Origin: a bacterium
Lineage (GTDB): Bacteria > CAIWAD01
DNA length: 5,388 nucleotides
Direction: 5' to 3'
Assembly: GCA_030429345.1 (NCBI GenBank)
Contig: JAUIFJ010000067.1
Span: forward strand, 1 to 5,388
Under the pieces are notes generated by a model. That model searched no databases, was not told where the DNA came from, and saw nothing but the letters and a program-made list of their open reading frames with translations. Position numbers and translations under genes: made by a program. Shown here one piece after another: positions 1 through 5,388 of this stretch (its first letter is position 1; every line of letters starts with the position of its first letter).

Positions 1-127
1 GCGGAAAGCGGTGCCGACAACCTGGCCTCGCTGACACTGGAGAACGCCGACGAGGGCTATTCGCTGGTGCTCGAAGGCAGCCTGAAGGGCTTCAGCGCCC
101 GCATCCACACGGATGCGACCCTGCTTT
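1..127. repeat. Exact 127-bp terminal direct repeat, left copy
   Basis: The first 127 bases are identical, with no mismatch found by eye, to the last 127 bases of the window (5262-5388). Both copies are coding and in the same reading frame, beginning with codons for AESGADNLAS. The right copy stops at the window edge, so the true extent of any identity beyond 127 bp cannot be seen. The length matches a common maximum k-mer size in de Bruijn assembly, which points to a loop in the assembly graph rather than a biological terminal repeat. Confidence 0.98.
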
Positions 128-597
128 CCGCCACGGCCCCCTTCCCGGTCTTCTTCTACCGCAGCGGCGATCAGTGGCTGATCGACGCGGTCAGCATCGA
201 CGGCCTGCTGGAAGACGGCGCCACGGTGCAGCTGCGCTTCAGCGACGGCGAAGCGCCGCAGCTGGCGGGCGTGGACGGCCGCGACGCGACCAACGGCGCG
301 ATCCAGGTCAGCACGGAATCGACGGTGCTGCCGGAGCGCTTCGCGCTTTCGCAGAACTACCCCAATCCCTTCAACCCGACGACCACGCTGCGCTACGACC
401 TGCCGAGTGCGGAGCACGTGCGGCTGGCTGTCTACAACATGCTGGGCCAGCAGGTTCAGGTGCTGGTCGACGAGGCCCAGGACGCAGGCAGCTATGATCT
501 GCGTTTCGACGCCTCGGGTCTGGCCAGCGGTGTATACGTCTATCGGATCCAGGCCGGCGAGCACAGCGACCTGAAGAAGATGGTGCTGATCAAGTAG
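1..597 (+). CDS. 3' end of a T9SS-secreted protein: beta-sandwich module plus type A sorting domain (5' partial)
   Basis: The frame is open from base 1 and ends at a TAG stop (595-597), leaving 198 residues. No start should be assigned inside the window: the GTG at 67 lies within the domain. Residues 6-100 alternate hydrophobic and polar positions like a cohesin-like beta-sandwich (SLTLEN, FSARIHTDA, WLIDAVSIDG, VQLRFSDGE). Residues 110-198 are a clear T9SS type A sorting domain: LPERFALSQNYPNPFNPTTT, then VRLAVYNMLGQ, AGSYDLRFDASGLASGVYVY and a basic KKMVLIK end. In this family the domain directs Sec-exported cargo through the outer membrane and is usually cleaved on the surface. If the 127-bp terminal repeat reflects a real join, this is the C-terminus (residues 1498-1695) of the gene starting at 771. 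Otherwise it belongs to an upstream paralogue. The sorting domain is near certain; the beta-sandwich assignment is tentative. Confidence 0.93.
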   Translation, partial: AESGADNLASLTLENADEGYSLVLEGSLKGFSARIHTDATLLSATAPFPVFFYRSGDQWLIDAVSIDGLLEDGATVQLRFSDGEAPQLAGVDGRDATNGAIQVSTESTVLPERFALSQNYPNPFNPTTTLRYDLPSAEHVRLAVYNMLGQQVQVLVDEAQDAGSYDLRFDASGLASGVYVYRIQAGEHSDLKKMVLIK

Positions 598-601
598 GAC
601 A

Positions 602-650
602 CAGCAAACCGGGTCGGGGAACCGCGCAAGGTTCCCCGGCCCCGTTGCTG
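602..650 (+). terminator. Long two-part hairpin after the stop codon, likely transcription terminator
   Basis: Five bases after the TAG stop, GGGTCGGGGAACC (611-623) pairs with GGTTCCCCGGCCC (630-642), giving 13 pairs including one T-G wobble around a 6-base loop GCGCAA. A small internal bulge separates this from an outer 6-bp stem, CAGCAA (602-607) with TTGCTG (645-650). The position directly after a gene and the strength of the stem fit a terminator. The following bases (CTTGTACACG) are not a run of T, so it is not a textbook intrinsic terminator. It may instead stabilise the mRNA 3' end or act with a factor. Confidence 0.7.
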
Positions 651-700
651 CTTGTACACGATGGTATTGCCAATGCCAGGGAAGATTGCAGGAGTCGTGT

Positions 701-732
701 TGCCTCTGCAGCCCGGTAGCGGACCGGAGGCA
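701..732 (+). promoter_or_regulatory. Leader hairpin burying a GGAGG site
   Basis: TGCCTCTG (701-708) pairs with CGGAGGCA (725-732), 8 pairs including one T-G wobble. A small inner stem CCG/CGG (713-715 with 720-722) can form inside the loop. The right arm contains GGAGG (726-730), the best Shine-Dalgarno match for the alternative start ATG 744, so folding would mask it. This argues for ATG 771 as the main start, or for translation control by leader structure. Regulation is inference; only the complementarity is seen. Confidence 0.4.
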
Positions 733-756
733 AGAAGCGCTCCATGATTCGAAAAC

Positions 757-761
757 AAGGA
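757..761 (+). promoter_or_regulatory. Shine-Dalgarno-like AAGGA deciding the start at 771
   Basis: AAGGA lies 9 bases before ATG 771, within the normal spacing range. The competing in-frame ATG 744 has GGAGG at 726-730 with a 13-base gap, longer than usual, and inside a hairpin. From 771 the signal peptide has a compact basic N-region; from 744 it gains nine residues (MIRKQGIST). Both starts give a workable signal peptide. Confidence 0.6.
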
Positions 762-770
762 ATCAGTACG

Positions 771-869
771 ATGAAAGAAACTGCTACAAATTCCAGACAA
801 GGAAGTTTACTGCTTCGACCCTGGATGGGCTTGTTGACTGCCGGGCTGTTGGCCAGCTCAGCCACTGCA
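771..869 (+). other. Sec signal peptide (residues 1-33)
   Basis: The first residues carry positive charges (K2, R9, R16). A hydrophobic stretch follows (WMGLLTAGLLA, residues 18-28), ending in SSATA-Q. The A-T-A before Q34 is a good signal peptidase I site, leaving glutamine as the mature N-terminus. There is no lipobox cysteine, so it is not a lipoprotein. A Sec signal is expected for T9SS cargo, which must reach the periplasm first. Confidence 0.88.
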
Positions 870-3800
870 CAGGTCACGGACTTCGAGAGCTTTTCCGCCG
901 GAACAGTCAACTATCAAGGCGGAGGCTCTACAACTGTCACATCGGGTGGCTACACGGTTCCCGATCCCTATGGCAGCTTGTGGACTGTGGCAGACGAATG
1001 GGGATTCACACCGGCTACTCCCCTGGACGAAGAAGTTGTAGACGACGGCAGCGGGAATAATGTATGGAGATTGTCCAACGCTGTCACACAGAATGGATTC
1101 AGCAATCTTCCGTACTCGCTCTCATCGCCCCTGCCCGCCGGAGAGTCCACTTCCGCGCTGTGGAACGACCGTGGGGACGATCATACAGCCCCAGTAAATC
1201 CTCCCCTCGCCCGGGCTTCCGCCGGCAGCACGACATTTCACGCCAGTTTGCGCTTCAAGTCGGCGACAGGTTCGCCTCAGTCCGACCTGGCAATCAGCTT
1301 GAGCGCAGGCCCGCGTCAGGGGACAATCCGCCAGTCCTATATCTCGATCAGCGACAATGGAGCAACGGGTCTCGATGTCGGCTTCTACGATACGGATGCG
1401 ATCGGCGATTTCATCGGCACGCCCCTGGCTACGGACCTGTCCTACTCGGCCTGGCACGAACTTGAACTCTACATCACTTTCGCAAACGGCCTCAATGGCG
1501 ACGGGTCCGGCAACGATGCGGTCACAGTCTTGCTGAATGGGAGCCAGGTCCATACTGGCACAACCTGGGAGACCTACTACGCCCTGAATCCGGGCCCACA
1601 CCCCAACAGTCCCTACGCGGTGGATGCCCTCATGTTTCGCGTCGGCGGTACCGCCCAGCCCGCACTGAGCGGGGGTGGCCTCTATTTTGACGATGTCCTC
1701 ATCGACAATGCCTCTCCGCAACCGGCTAGCGAGAAATGGGTCGACGCTGCCGGCGGCTCCGACGCCAATGACGGCAACAGCATGGGCACGGCCTACGCCA
1801 CCCTGCAGCACGCGATCAGCAACTCCAACAGCGGCACGGGGCCCGGCGACCGCAGCGTGATCCATGTAATGGACGGCACCTACGAGACCACCGGGCAGGT
1901 CAATATCGACGGCTACTCCTCGGCGGTCGTGGTCGCGGACCTGGACTACCTGACCATCCAGGCAGTTGCCGGACATGAGCCGGTCGTCAAGCCCTCGACG
2001 CCGGGGAACATCGTCGTCTTCTCCGTCGAGAACTGTGAGCACCTGATCGTCGACAACATCGACTGCGACGCAACGGTGGCCCAGTTCGACAACTGGCACA
2101 TCAGCGATGCCGATGATCTGACGATCCGCAATTGCCTGATCGAAGGCGGCGAGGACGGCCTCGACATCAACACCGACCTGACCGGCCTGCTGATCGAAGG
2201 CTGCACCTTCCGAGACATCAACACGGGCAGCGGCGACGACGTCATCGACTGCTCCGACGATGCCGTCACCAACGTGACGATCCAGGACAATCTCTTCGAG
2301 AACAACTACCGCAACATGCTGCTCCGCGACGATGGCGGCGCCAACGATACCGATTTCGTGATCCGTCGCAATATTTTCAACGGCACCAGCAGCCAGGAAT
2401 CGATCCGGCTGATCGGCGCCATCGACATCCTGCTCGAAAACAATGTGATCATGAACAGCACGCAGCAGGGCGTCTATGTAGACAACGGCTGCAGCAACAT
2501 CACCATCCGCCACAACACCTTCTACAACAACGGCGCGGACCCCGGCGACAACGGGGAGATCCGCACGAAGCTGCTGACGGCGGATTGCGTGATCCAGAAC
2601 AACATCATCTATGGAAACGGCAGCAATCCGGCTTTCGAGACCACGGCCTCCAGCCTGCCGGGCGAGGACTACAATCTGGTCTACAACACGGACCTTGGCA
2701 GCTTCACCCTTGGCGCGAACACGCTGAGCGGCGTCGACCCATCTTTTGCTGACCTGACGCCGGGCAGCGAAGACTTCCATCTGGACAATACCAGCATGGC
2801 CATCGGAGCCGGCGCGGCGCTGGGCGTCACGGAGGACCAGGACGGTGGTGCCGCACGAGGCACGCCGCCAGACCTCGGCGCCTACGAGAACGATCTCGAT
2901 TCTCCCGAAGTCACGGAAGTCTGGGTCGACGACGACTACTGTGATACCTGTCCCAATGACGGCCACACCTGGGGCTTCGACGCCTTCAACAGCATCCAGG
3001 CCGGCATCGACGCGGTAACGGGAAGCACAGTGAATGTCGCACCGGGCACCTATGTGGAATCGGGGCAGATCGAGATCAGCGTGAATCTGAATCTCCTGGG
3101 GGATCCAAGCGACCGGCCGATCATCATGACGGACACGGACACGGGATCCGGTGGTGACTCTCGCGGCTGGTTCCTCGTGCATCCCGATTACACGGTGACC
3201 GTCGCGGACCTGATCTTCGACGGCAGCGGCCAGCAGGTCTACCAGGGCTTCCGACACAAGGGCGGCGGGAGCTTCACGAACTGCAGCTTCCGCGAGATCA
3301 AGTACCCCGGCTATGCGGGCACAGCTGTGGCGGCCTTTGGCGGACCCGGCAATCCGGTCCATTTCACCAATTGCGATTTCGAGGAGATCGGTCGCGTCGG
3401 TGTGCTCTACTTTGGCAGCGGCGTCAATGGATCCGTCTACAGCGGATGCACCTACACGGGCAAGGGGGTCGGTGACTGGCTGGACTATGCGCTTGATATC
3501 AGCAACGGAGCGGAAGTGACCATTGACGGCTGCACCGTCACCGCCTGCCAGGGTGTCGCGAGCTCTGACGGCTCCACCTCGGCCGGATACCTTGTGTCGA
3601 CCTTTTTCGGACCGGGCACGTCAGCCGTTTTCAGCAATTGCCTGATGACAGGAAACCATGTCGGAGTCGCCGTCGGATACGATGCCACGGACACAAGCAC
3701 GACGACGATCTCCGCGTGTGATATTTCCGGCAACGACTATGGAGTAACCTCTACGGCTCCGCTCGTCTCCGCGACGGGCAACTGGTGGGGCGACGCCACC

Positions 3801-5388
3801 GGACCCCTGGACAACAGTGACGACACACTCTCGGGCGGCCTGTACAACCCCGGCGGATTGGGAAACGAAGTCAGCGACGGCGTACTCTATGACCCCTGGC
3901 TCGGCGGAATGTATACCGTCGAACACGCGCTGGACGAAGGCCTGATCTCCGTGGCCGACGGCGCCGGCTATGTCGATTCGGACACGCTGCGCGTTTCGAT
4001 CAGCGGAGGTGCACCCGGTGCCGACGCCTGGCGCCAGGTCACCGTCTTCATGAGCTGGAACGACAGCGAACTCGGCTTCGGCAACGTGACGAACCTCTTC
4101 AGCCATCCCGACGGGCAGATCATTTCCGCCAATGTCGGCAGCGGCACCCTGGAAGTCAGCGTGGCGATCACGGGCATGACGAGCGGCCAGGAAGACGCGA
4201 TTCCCCTGTTCAAGATTCCGCTCGATGGCCTGGCCCAGAACGAGACGGGTTCAGCGATCACGATCACCAATGTGGTCCTGAGAAATGTGATTAATCAGCC
4301 GATCACTGCCGGATGGCAGGGCCCCCTGGCAGAGCTCATCGACGGCACCGTCCCCACCATGGCGATCACGCCTCCCACGGCCACCTGCGTCAATGCCGAC
4401 TTCAATGTCTTGCTCGACGCCGACGACAACCTGGCCCTCGAGACCGTGGAGTACCGCCTGAACGGCGGCGGCTGGGCCACCGTGGCCACGACGATTGCCG
4501 GCACGGCCTACGACAACGCGGCCTATAGCGTCCCCGTCGCCGGCCTGCCCGAGGGAAGCAACACGGTCGAGTTCCGTTCCCTGGACGACGTGGGCTACGA
4601 GAGCAGCTACGCCTCCTGGACCTTCCACCTGGATACGGTCGCACCTGCAGCCGCGGCCAACCTGGACGCCACGCCGGAACACGCGCAGGTCGACCTCTGG
4701 TGGGACGCCGGCAGCGGCCTGGACAACTACACCCTCTACTGGAAGAAGCGTACCGGCTATCCCTATCCCGGTGGTTTGACCGCCGTCTGGGATGGTGATA
4801 CGACGGGCGCCGACGGCAGCGTGAGCATCGATGCCGATTCGACGCACTACGCCTTCGGGACCACCCCGAACGTCGCCGATCGCGGTGTCTACGACTTCGT
4901 GCTGGTGGCCGAGGACTGCGTCAACAGCCCCGCCGCCAGCGGCGTGGCCAGCGCGACCAACTATTTCCTTGGTGATGTGCTTTCCGCAGCAGGCACTCAG
5001 CCCGCAGACGGCATTGTCTGGGGCACCGGCACGGGCGACTTGCAGCTGATCAGCAACATCTACGGCACCACGCCGGCGACGATGCCCGAGATGGAAATGA
5101 ACATCGGGCCCACGGACGACTACAGCAGCTATGGCCTTCCCGCGTCCCACGAATCGACCGCGCTGGTCAACTTCGAGGACCTGATCATTTTCGCCATCAA
5201 CTTCGGCCCCGCCGGTCCCGAGCTTCCGATCACGAATTCGGAAGCCCCGATCGCCCCGAAGGCGGAAAGCGGTGCCGACAACCTGGCCTCGCTGACACTG
5301 GAGAACGCCGACGAGGGCTATTCGCTGGTGCTCGAAGGCAGCCTGAAGGGCTTCAGCGCCCGCATCCACACGGATGCGACCCTGCTTT
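771..5388 (+). CDS. Large secreted multidomain parallel beta-helix protein (3' partial at the window edge; probable T9SS cargo)
   Basis: Reading codon by codon from ATG 771, I find no stop before the right edge (1,539 full codons). The in-frame TAG at 717-719 bounds the frame upstream. Order of parts: signal peptide (1-33), unassigned beta-rich domain (about 35-315), beta-helix 1 (321-706), beta-helix 2 (717-1044), cohesin-like domain (about 1048-1190), Ig-like (about 1191-1292), FN3-like (about 1293-1396), dockerin-like segment (1397-1479), then the C-terminal module from A1498. If the ends join, the protein is 1,695 residues and ends in the sorting domain coded at 1-597. It is likely exported and surface-displayed or released. 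The beta-helices suggest carbohydrate binding or processing, or adhesion; I see no diagnostic active site. ATG 771 is preferred because AAGGA lies 9 nt upstream. ATG 744 is also in frame (nine more residues), with GGAGG 13 nt upstream. Confidence 0.92.
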   Translation, partial: MKETATNSRQGSLLLRPWMGLLTAGLLASSATAQVTDFESFSAGTVNYQGGGSTTVTSGGYTVPDPYGSLWTVADEWGFTPATPLDEEVVDDGSGNNVWRLSNAVTQNGFSNLPYSLSSPLPAGESTSALWNDRGDDHTAPVNPPLARASAGSTTFHASLRFKSATGSPQSDLAISLSAGPRQGTIRQSYISISDNGATGLDVGFYDTDAIGDFIGTPLATDLSYSAWHELELYITFANGLNGDGSGNDAVTVLLNGSQVHTGTTWETYYALNPGPHPNSPYAVDALMFRVGGTAQPALSGGGLYFDDVLIDNASPQPASEKWVDAAGGSDANDGNSMGTAYATLQHAISNSNSGTGPGDRSVIHVMDGTYETTGQVNIDGYSSAVVVADLDYLTIQAVAGHEPVVKPSTPGNIVVFSVENCEHLIVDNIDCDATVAQFDNWHISDADDLTIRNCLIEGGEDGLDINTDLTGLLIEGCTFRDINTGSGDDVIDCSDDAVTNVTIQDNLFENNYRNMLLRDDGGANDTDFVIRRNIFNGTSSQESIRLIGAIDILLENNVIMNSTQQGVYVDNGCSNITIRHNTFYNNGADPGDNGEIRTKLLTADCVIQNNIIYGNGSNPAFETTASSLPGEDYNLVYNTDLGSFTLGANTLSGVDPSFADLTPGSEDFHLDNTSMAIGAGAALGVTEDQDGGAARGTPPDLGAYENDLDSPEVTEVWVDDDYCDTCPNDGHTWGFDAFNSIQAGIDAVTGSTVNVAPGTYVESGQIEISVNLNLLGDPSDRPIIMTDTDTGSGGDSRGWFLVHPDYTVTVADLIFDGSGQQVYQGFRHKGGGSFTNCSFREIKYPGYAGTAVAAFGGPGNPVHFTNCDFEEIGRVGVLYFGSGVNGSVYSGCTYTGKGVGDWLDYALDISNGAEVTIDGCTVTACQGVASSDGSTSAGYLVSTFFGPGTSAVFSNCLMTGNHVGVAVGYDATDTSTTTISACDISGNDYGVTSTAPLVSATGNWWGDATGPLDNSDDTLSGGLYNPGGLGNEVSDGVLYDPWLGGMYTVEHALDEGLISVADGAGYVDSDTLRVSISGGAPGADAWRQVTVFMSWNDSELGFGNVTNLFSHPDGQIISANVGSGTLEVSVAITGMTSGQEDAIPLFKIPLDGLAQNETGSAITITNVVLRNVINQPITAGWQGPLAELIDGTVPTMAITPPTATCVNADFNVLLDADDNLALETVEYRLNGGGWATVATTIAGTAYDNAAYSVPVAGLPEGSNTVEFRSLDDVGYESSYASWTFHLDTVAPAAAANLDATPEHAQVDLWWDAGSGLDNYTLYWKKRTGYPYPGGLTAVWDGDTTGADGSVSIDADSTHYAFGTTPNVADRGVYDFVLVAEDCVNSPAASGVASATNYFLGDVLSAAGTQPADGIVWGTGTGDLQLISNIYGTTPATMPEMEMNIGPTDDYSSYGLPASHESTALVNFEDLIIFAINFGPAGPELPITNSEAPIAPKAESGADNLASLTLENADEGYSLVLEGSLKGFSARIHTDATLL
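870..1715 (+). other. N-terminal beta-rich domain of unassigned family (about residues 34-315)
   Basis: This part has alternating beta-strand-like segments (FHASLRFKSA, DLAISLSAG, HELELYITF, VTVLLNGSQVHTG) and ends with GGGLYFDDVLIDN, a closing strand common in LamG/concanavalin-like jelly rolls of secreted proteins. The opening DFESFSAG and several Trp and Tyr residues would suit a carbohydrate-binding face. The jelly-roll reading rests on strand pattern only. Codon use here is less GC-biased than near the 3' end (more ACA, TTG, GGA, TCA). Confidence 0.45.
1731..2888 (+). other. Right-handed parallel beta-helix module 1 (residues 321-706)
   Basis: It opens with the pattern EKWVDAAGGSDANDG, followed by a TLQHAIS helix cap and a VIHVMDGTYE strand, the usual entry to DUF1565/pectate-lyase-like beta-helices. 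Several rungs follow with the repeated pattern hydrophobic-x-hydrophobic-x-N-x-hydrophobic-hydrophobic: LIVDNIDC, LTIRNCLIEG, LLIEGCTF, VTIQDNLFENN, FVIRRNIFNG, ILLENNVIMN, ITIRHNTFYNN, CVIQNNIIYGN. It closes with DLGAYE (701-706), a typical end mark. Asp and Asn are frequent at turns, but I cannot point to a confirmed catalytic set, so lyase activity is not claimed. Confidence 0.88.
2919..3902 (+). other. Right-handed parallel beta-helix module 2 (residues 717-1044)
   Basis: It starts anew with VWVDDDYCDTCPNDGHTWG, then AFNSIQAGIDAV and VNVAPGTYVE, an entry motif distinct from module 1 but seen in NosD-like and related beta-helix proteins. Rungs include VADLIFDG, FTNCSFREI, FTNCDFEEIG, VTIDGCTV, FSNCLMTGN and ISACDISGNDYGV. 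It ends with NWWGDATGP (1004-1012) and a NPGG-VSDGV-YDPWLG tail, the familiar closing motif of such helices. C724 and C727 form a CxxC. The role is probably glycan binding or processing, or structural. Confidence 0.87.
3912..4340 (+). other. Cohesin-like beta-sandwich (about residues 1048-1190)
   Basis: The segment has the strand order and spacing typical of cohesin or carbohydrate-binding sandwich folds: DTLRVSISGG, then VTVFMSWNDSELGF (a 'what is seen at point x' strand pair), TLEVSVAITG, then IPLFKIPLDGLA and AITITNVVLRN before a closing ITAGWQG. Cohesins bind dockerins in cellulosomes. Similar sandwiches also occur in non-cellulosomal surface proteins. Assignment is by pattern only. Confidence 0.4.
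4341..4958 (+). other. Ig-like and FN3-like domains (about residues 1191-1396)
   Basis: Residues 1191-1292 resemble a bacterial Ig-like domain: VEYRLNGGGWATV, then VPVAGLPEGSNTVEFRSLDD and a WTFHLDTVAP linker. Residues 1293-1396 resemble fibronectin type III: ANLDATPEHAQVDLWWDAG, YTLYWKKRTG and YDFVLVAEDCVNSPAAS. Such domains usually act as spacers that extend the functional modules away from the surface. No catalytic residue is evident. Confidence 0.65.
4959..5207 (+). other. Degenerate dockerin-like segment (residues 1397-1479)
   Basis: Two related half-repeats are visible: YFLGDV...PADGIVWGTGTGDLQLISNIYG and, after NIGPTDD, LVNFEDLIIFAINFG. Each has the DL-hydrophobic-hydrophobic helix of a dockerin or EF-hand-like repeat. 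The classical calcium loop DxNxDG is not intact in either half. In FCB-type proteins such a segment often sits just before a C-terminal beta-sandwich and sorting domain, as here. Confidence 0.5.
5262..5388. repeat. Exact 127-bp terminal direct repeat, right copy
   Basis: This is the second copy of positions 1-127. Position 5262 is a first codon position of the frame that starts at 771, and position 1 is a first codon position of the frame ending at 597, so joining the copies continues the frame without a shift. The joined unit is 5,261 bp. The bases just before this copy encode PITNSEAPIAPK, a plausible linker between the dockerin-like segment and the C-terminal beta-sandwich. Confidence 0.98.

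Follow-up and report, generated by a model that had tools for sequence, protein, structure and literature searches.

Results

The window contains the tail of a secreted-protein gene and the open-ended gene W

The window, the whole stretch of 5,388 nucleotides analyzed here, is the entire contig C6 of a draft genome of 4.24 Mb in 92 contigs. It begins with the 3' end of a secreted-protein gene, which is followed after a short spacer by gene W, on the same strand, whose 3' end is open. The features to which we refer below are as follows.

1-127, no strand: first copy of the k-mer vertex, with the same letters as 5262-5388; its length, 127, is the most frequent terminal-match length among the contig tips
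1-597, plus strand: last part of a gene for a secreted protein whose C-terminus is a type A sorting tail for type IX secretion (T9SS; PF18962, TIGR04183)
421-597, plus strand: sorting tail matched at 95% identity by the right tip of contig C5, where 8 of the 177 bp differ, 7 of these being third positions
598-743, no strand: spacer between two co-directional array genes, different from the DNA after the near-identical C5 tail
744-5387, plus strand: gene W, open at its 3' end, encoding a secreted right-handed beta-helix protein; start at 744 or 771
4337-4503, plus strand: stretch also present at the left tip of contig C7 (39 identical bp, one mismatch at 4376, then 127 identical bp), a second entrance to the loop
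4377-5388, plus strand: putative collapsed repeat of about 1 kb, tails of W and of gene Z on C7; observed for 4377-4503, and deduced for the remainder from the ends of C7 and C6
5262-5388, no strand: k-mer vertex, second copy, one and the same graph vertex as 1-127

The fragment encoded by 1-597 matches Por_Secre_tail (PF18962, E=2e-11) and TIGR04183 (E=1.1e-11, 44.5 bits against a cut-off of 23), and W matches Beta_helix (PF13229, E=2.9e-21). W is the one gene of the window, all domains found in the window are those of secreted proteins, and a replication gene is absent from it. The genome carries a SprA homologue on another contig (C44, 663.9 bits summed) and at least 150 sorting tails of the type A kind, so that both elements that define T9SS type A cargo, a C-terminal type A sorting domain and a T9SS in the genome, are present. 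Judged from these domains, the proteins of the gene array described below are probably unexceptional T9SS cargo, either secreted or attached to the surface.

Direct comparison confirmed an earlier observation that 1-127 equals 5262-5388. This exact 127-bp match, the largest direct repeat within the window, cannot be due to chance. Joining 744-5261 to 1-597 gives a single open frame of 1,704 codons plus one terminal stop, counted from the ATG at 744. The claim that the join keeps the frame therefore holds, while the 1,695 codons given with it fit, by arithmetic, a start at the ATG at 771.

The terminal repeat almost certainly has the length of the assembly k-mer

For each contig tip, we determined the longest terminal stretch that is also present elsewhere in the fetched tips. 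The scan covered 160 readable tips; 12 contigs shorter than 3 kb were left out, and at most 20 kb was used per contig end, so the counts of matches are lower bounds. The terminal match is exactly 127 bp in 30 of the 160 tips and exceeds 127 bp in just one (186 bp), and because of this we conclude that the final assembly k was almost certainly 127. Five overlaps of exactly 127 bp join one tip to another (66R/42R, 45L/15R, 42R/33R, 30R/15L, and 15L/10R), and C6 alone among the readable contigs overlaps itself by 127 bp. A match of exactly 99 bp was found at 8 of the 160 tips, which suggests a prior k=99 round of a multi-k assembly. The overlap lengths of 127 and 99, from which the final k is deduced, form the pattern that a multi-k de Bruijn assembly finishing at k=127 leaves.

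The terminal repeat of the record is not a biological feature. The tip lengths bear out the earlier reading, in which the repeat is a k=127 overlap left by the assembly on a graph loop, and the equality of repeat length and assembly k likewise agrees with the warning that it should not be taken for a biological terminal repeat.

A second contig enters the loop

The left tip of C7, read outwards, ends in the 127-mer of C6:4377-4503, which lies inside the window, and both contigs have the same codon phase there. The reverse strand of C7 holds the upstream genes of an array of beta-helix paralogues with T9SS sorting tails, namely A' (753 aa), B' (1,051 aa), and Z, which continues past the contig end. 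Z and W are mostly 54-62% identical upstream of about 4337, and near 4337-4344 their identity jumps from about 57-62% to 98-100%. When Z is extended through C6:4504-5261 and 1-597, its frame stays open as far as the stop.

Because gene Z of C7 enters the loop at 4377-4503, C6 is not an isolated loop. A circular plasmid is expected to form an isolated loop, and here C7 enters it; an isolated circle is excluded at the assembly level.

A gene array in a related genome suggests a place for C6 between C7 and C5

In G001, a genome of the same family, four array genes A-B-C-D lie consecutively on one contig (C36, 25391-39984). The best matches in this array are A for A', B for B', C for W (44% over 834 aa), and D for Z. 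The gene upstream of A in G001 has a relative on the reverse complement of C7 (48%), and the gene downstream of D has one on the reverse complement of C5 (52% over 200 aa), where it immediately follows a gene whose tail is 95% identical to C6:421-597. The two sides of the array are thus found on C7 and C5, and C6 probably belongs between them.

A direct 127-mer link between C5 and C6 was not found, the longest exact stretch that they share being 66 bp. Since the two contigs have no 127-mer in common, about 290 bp are missing between them, perhaps lying among the 12 contigs shorter than 3 kb. The C-like and D-like genes are swapped between the two genomes, with B'-Z(D-like)-W(C-like) on C7 and C6 and B-C-D on C36 of G001. 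The order proposed here is the reverse of that in G001, where the C-like gene comes before the D-like gene, and this counts against our model, as does the lack of a 127-mer common to C5 and C6. Farther from the array, gene content is mostly not conserved between the two genomes.

The loop is best explained by a collapsed gene array

We are confident that the loop consists of adjacent, partly identical chromosomal secreted-protein genes that were collapsed by the k=127 assembly. Under this model, both ends of the window would be the same graph vertex of a de Bruijn assembly with a final k of 127. Z, with its N-terminal part on C7, and W, with its N-terminal part in the window, would be adjacent, co-directional, and chromosomal, and would have a near-identical C-terminal segment in common, from near 4337 to about 5388. 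Short reads would not have spanned this segment, so that the two near-identical copies of about 1 kb would have gone unresolved, a single one would have been kept, and the DNA lying between them would have formed a loop. The order of Z tail, spacer, W body, and shared segment would then read as a loop whose ends share one k-mer. The path would run from the reverse complement of C7 with the Z body through the shared segment into C6:128-597, the end of Z, then through the spacer (598-743) into the W body up to 4376, through the shared segment again, and across the missing 290 bp or so into the reverse complement of C5. We infer that the two copies are also identical over 4504-5388, that the loop has an exit at base 128, and that this exit leads to C5; 128-597 would belong to the upstream neighbor Z rather than to the gene that starts at 744.

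The loop closes in frame because both copies lie in homologous genes in the same phase. The earlier note had mentioned, as an alternative, that a shared coding module would also keep the frame, and such a module is the likely cause of the loop. What does not stand is the note's statement that the join makes a single complete gene out of two partial ones: the frame is indeed kept, but the entry of C7 and the synteny with the relative speak against a single gene. The gene obtained by closing the window is probably a chimera of the W body fused to the Z tail, and the window should not be closed into one complete gene.

Three other explanations have to be weighed against a collapsed array. The record could be a true 5,261-bp circle, a small plasmid or another independent element, cut at an arbitrary k-mer. 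A circular template is expected to yield a contig that overlaps itself by exactly k (PMC8116208), C6 is the sole readable contig with such an overlap, and the frame closes. However, the terminal 127-mer of C7 lies inside the loop, the window has one secreted-protein gene with neither a replication nor a mobilization gene, and the relative carries the gene within an array on a contig of chromosomal size. Searches with the window against plasmids and phages returned no match. We consider a circle very unlikely. The exact match at both ends would also be compatible with a linear molecule that has a biological terminal repeat, as at the ends of a phage genome, but the length of the match is that of the assembler k, the same length recurs at 28 further contig tips, the repeat lies in the interior coding sequence of a secreted-protein gene, and the window has neither phage genes nor phage matches, which leaves this explanation with next to no probability.

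It is also conceivable that the array is chromosomal and that the W unit is tandemly amplified in 5.26-kb copies, or excised as a circle in part of the population. Either would give an identical graph shape with an entrance, a loop, and an exit, and recombination between the two shared segments would yield the circle. RecA-dependent recombination acts well on direct repeats of about 1 kb, the size proposed here. Yet amplification or excision is unneeded, as a single copy of W accounts for the graph, and the relative has one copy per gene. We regard this variant as improbable and retain the collapse of adjacent chromosomal genes as our explanation.

Near-identical sorting tails are enriched among neighboring T9SS cargo genes

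We compared 127 sorting tails from about 2.1 Mb of the window's genome and scored two tails as near-identical when one or both of their final two 120-nt windows were at least 85% identical. Of the same-strand pairs within 8 kb, 8 of 56 had near-identical tails; the counts were 0 of 20 for pairs on opposite strands, 0 of 144 for pairs farther apart on the same contig, and 3 of 7,781 for pairs from different contigs. These pairs are not independent of one another, and part of the DNA compared was picked for neighboring tails, a choice made by position and not by identity. In six of the eight neighbor pairs, the DNA 360-600 nt before the stop is less than 65% identical. At C46:89943/91983, for example, the tail is 98% and the body 51% identical.

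Six neighboring co-directional pairs of T9SS cargo genes (C46:89943/91983, C8:34323/36694, C40:113936/116462, C64:22685/25062, C88:24127/25371, and C4:15187/17040) are 93-98% identical in the tail in at least one 120-nt window and at most 65% identical 360-600 nt before the stop. Two further pairs, C56:65457 and 72194 and, on the minus strand, C61:7249 and 10469, are about 86-99% identical in the tail and the adjoining body, and the C56 pair is about 92% identical over at least 1.5 kb. The C56 and C61 pairs probably arose more recently, by tandem duplication.

Genes C and D of the relative (ends at C36:34445 and 39984) are 91-99% identical over their last 270 nt and 58% identical just before. 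As far as the sequences go, C-like and D-like neighbors share tails in both genomes, and the breakpoints differ. The likely cause of the shared neighbor tails is gene conversion acting locally, or duplication of the tails, although gene duplication followed by faster divergence of the bodies may also produce the pattern. We consider it as likely as not that, in this lineage, co-directional neighbors with dissimilar bodies have repeatedly replaced one another's sorting tails, whether through local gene conversion or through short duplications of the tail, with Z and W as a long and recent case. A literature search for T9SS and concerted evolution returned nothing, and nothing on sorting tails was found; a search for T9SS and gene conversion returned only a paper on Porphyromonas gingivalis (PMC5266723).

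Discussion

A contig such as C6 may be labeled a complete small replicon or be closed into one gene during curation. For C6, closure would give a circle that is false and a protein that is probably chimeric. A cheap test needs only the assembly file: one looks for other contigs whose ends are k-mers from within the loop. Shared tails of neighboring genes may break other short-read assemblies of T9SS-rich bacteria in the same way, and they point to a testable process, the homogenization of tails.

The k-length terminal repeats described with CheckV show the same signature and were attributed to circular templates (PMC8116208, Extended Data Fig. 3). As in those contigs, the repeat length here equals the assembler k and the two ends are one graph position; in contrast to them, a second contig enters the loop, and the template is, by our reading, a chromosomal gene array. 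The locus also resembles the collapsed tandem or segmental repeats of short-read assemblies, in which two near-identical copies become one and the flanking contigs stop at the boundary, but here only the C-terminal segment is shared and the gene bodies differ.

With respect to its product, the locus is like other T9SS type A cargo (TIGR04183/PF18962), with a tail above the curated cut-off, a beta-helix body, and a SprA homologue in the genome. The protein itself is unremarkable in comparison with typical cargo of this type, and what differs is that the tail DNA is common to a neighboring gene. In P. gingivalis, T9SS cargo and surface proteins undergo domain rearrangement and allelic exchange (PMC5266723). 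Recombination among repeated modules of T9SS cargo genes would be the likeness between the two systems, whereas the modules in P. gingivalis are adhesin modules that differ as allelic variants between strains, and those described here are the sorting tails of neighboring genes within one genome.
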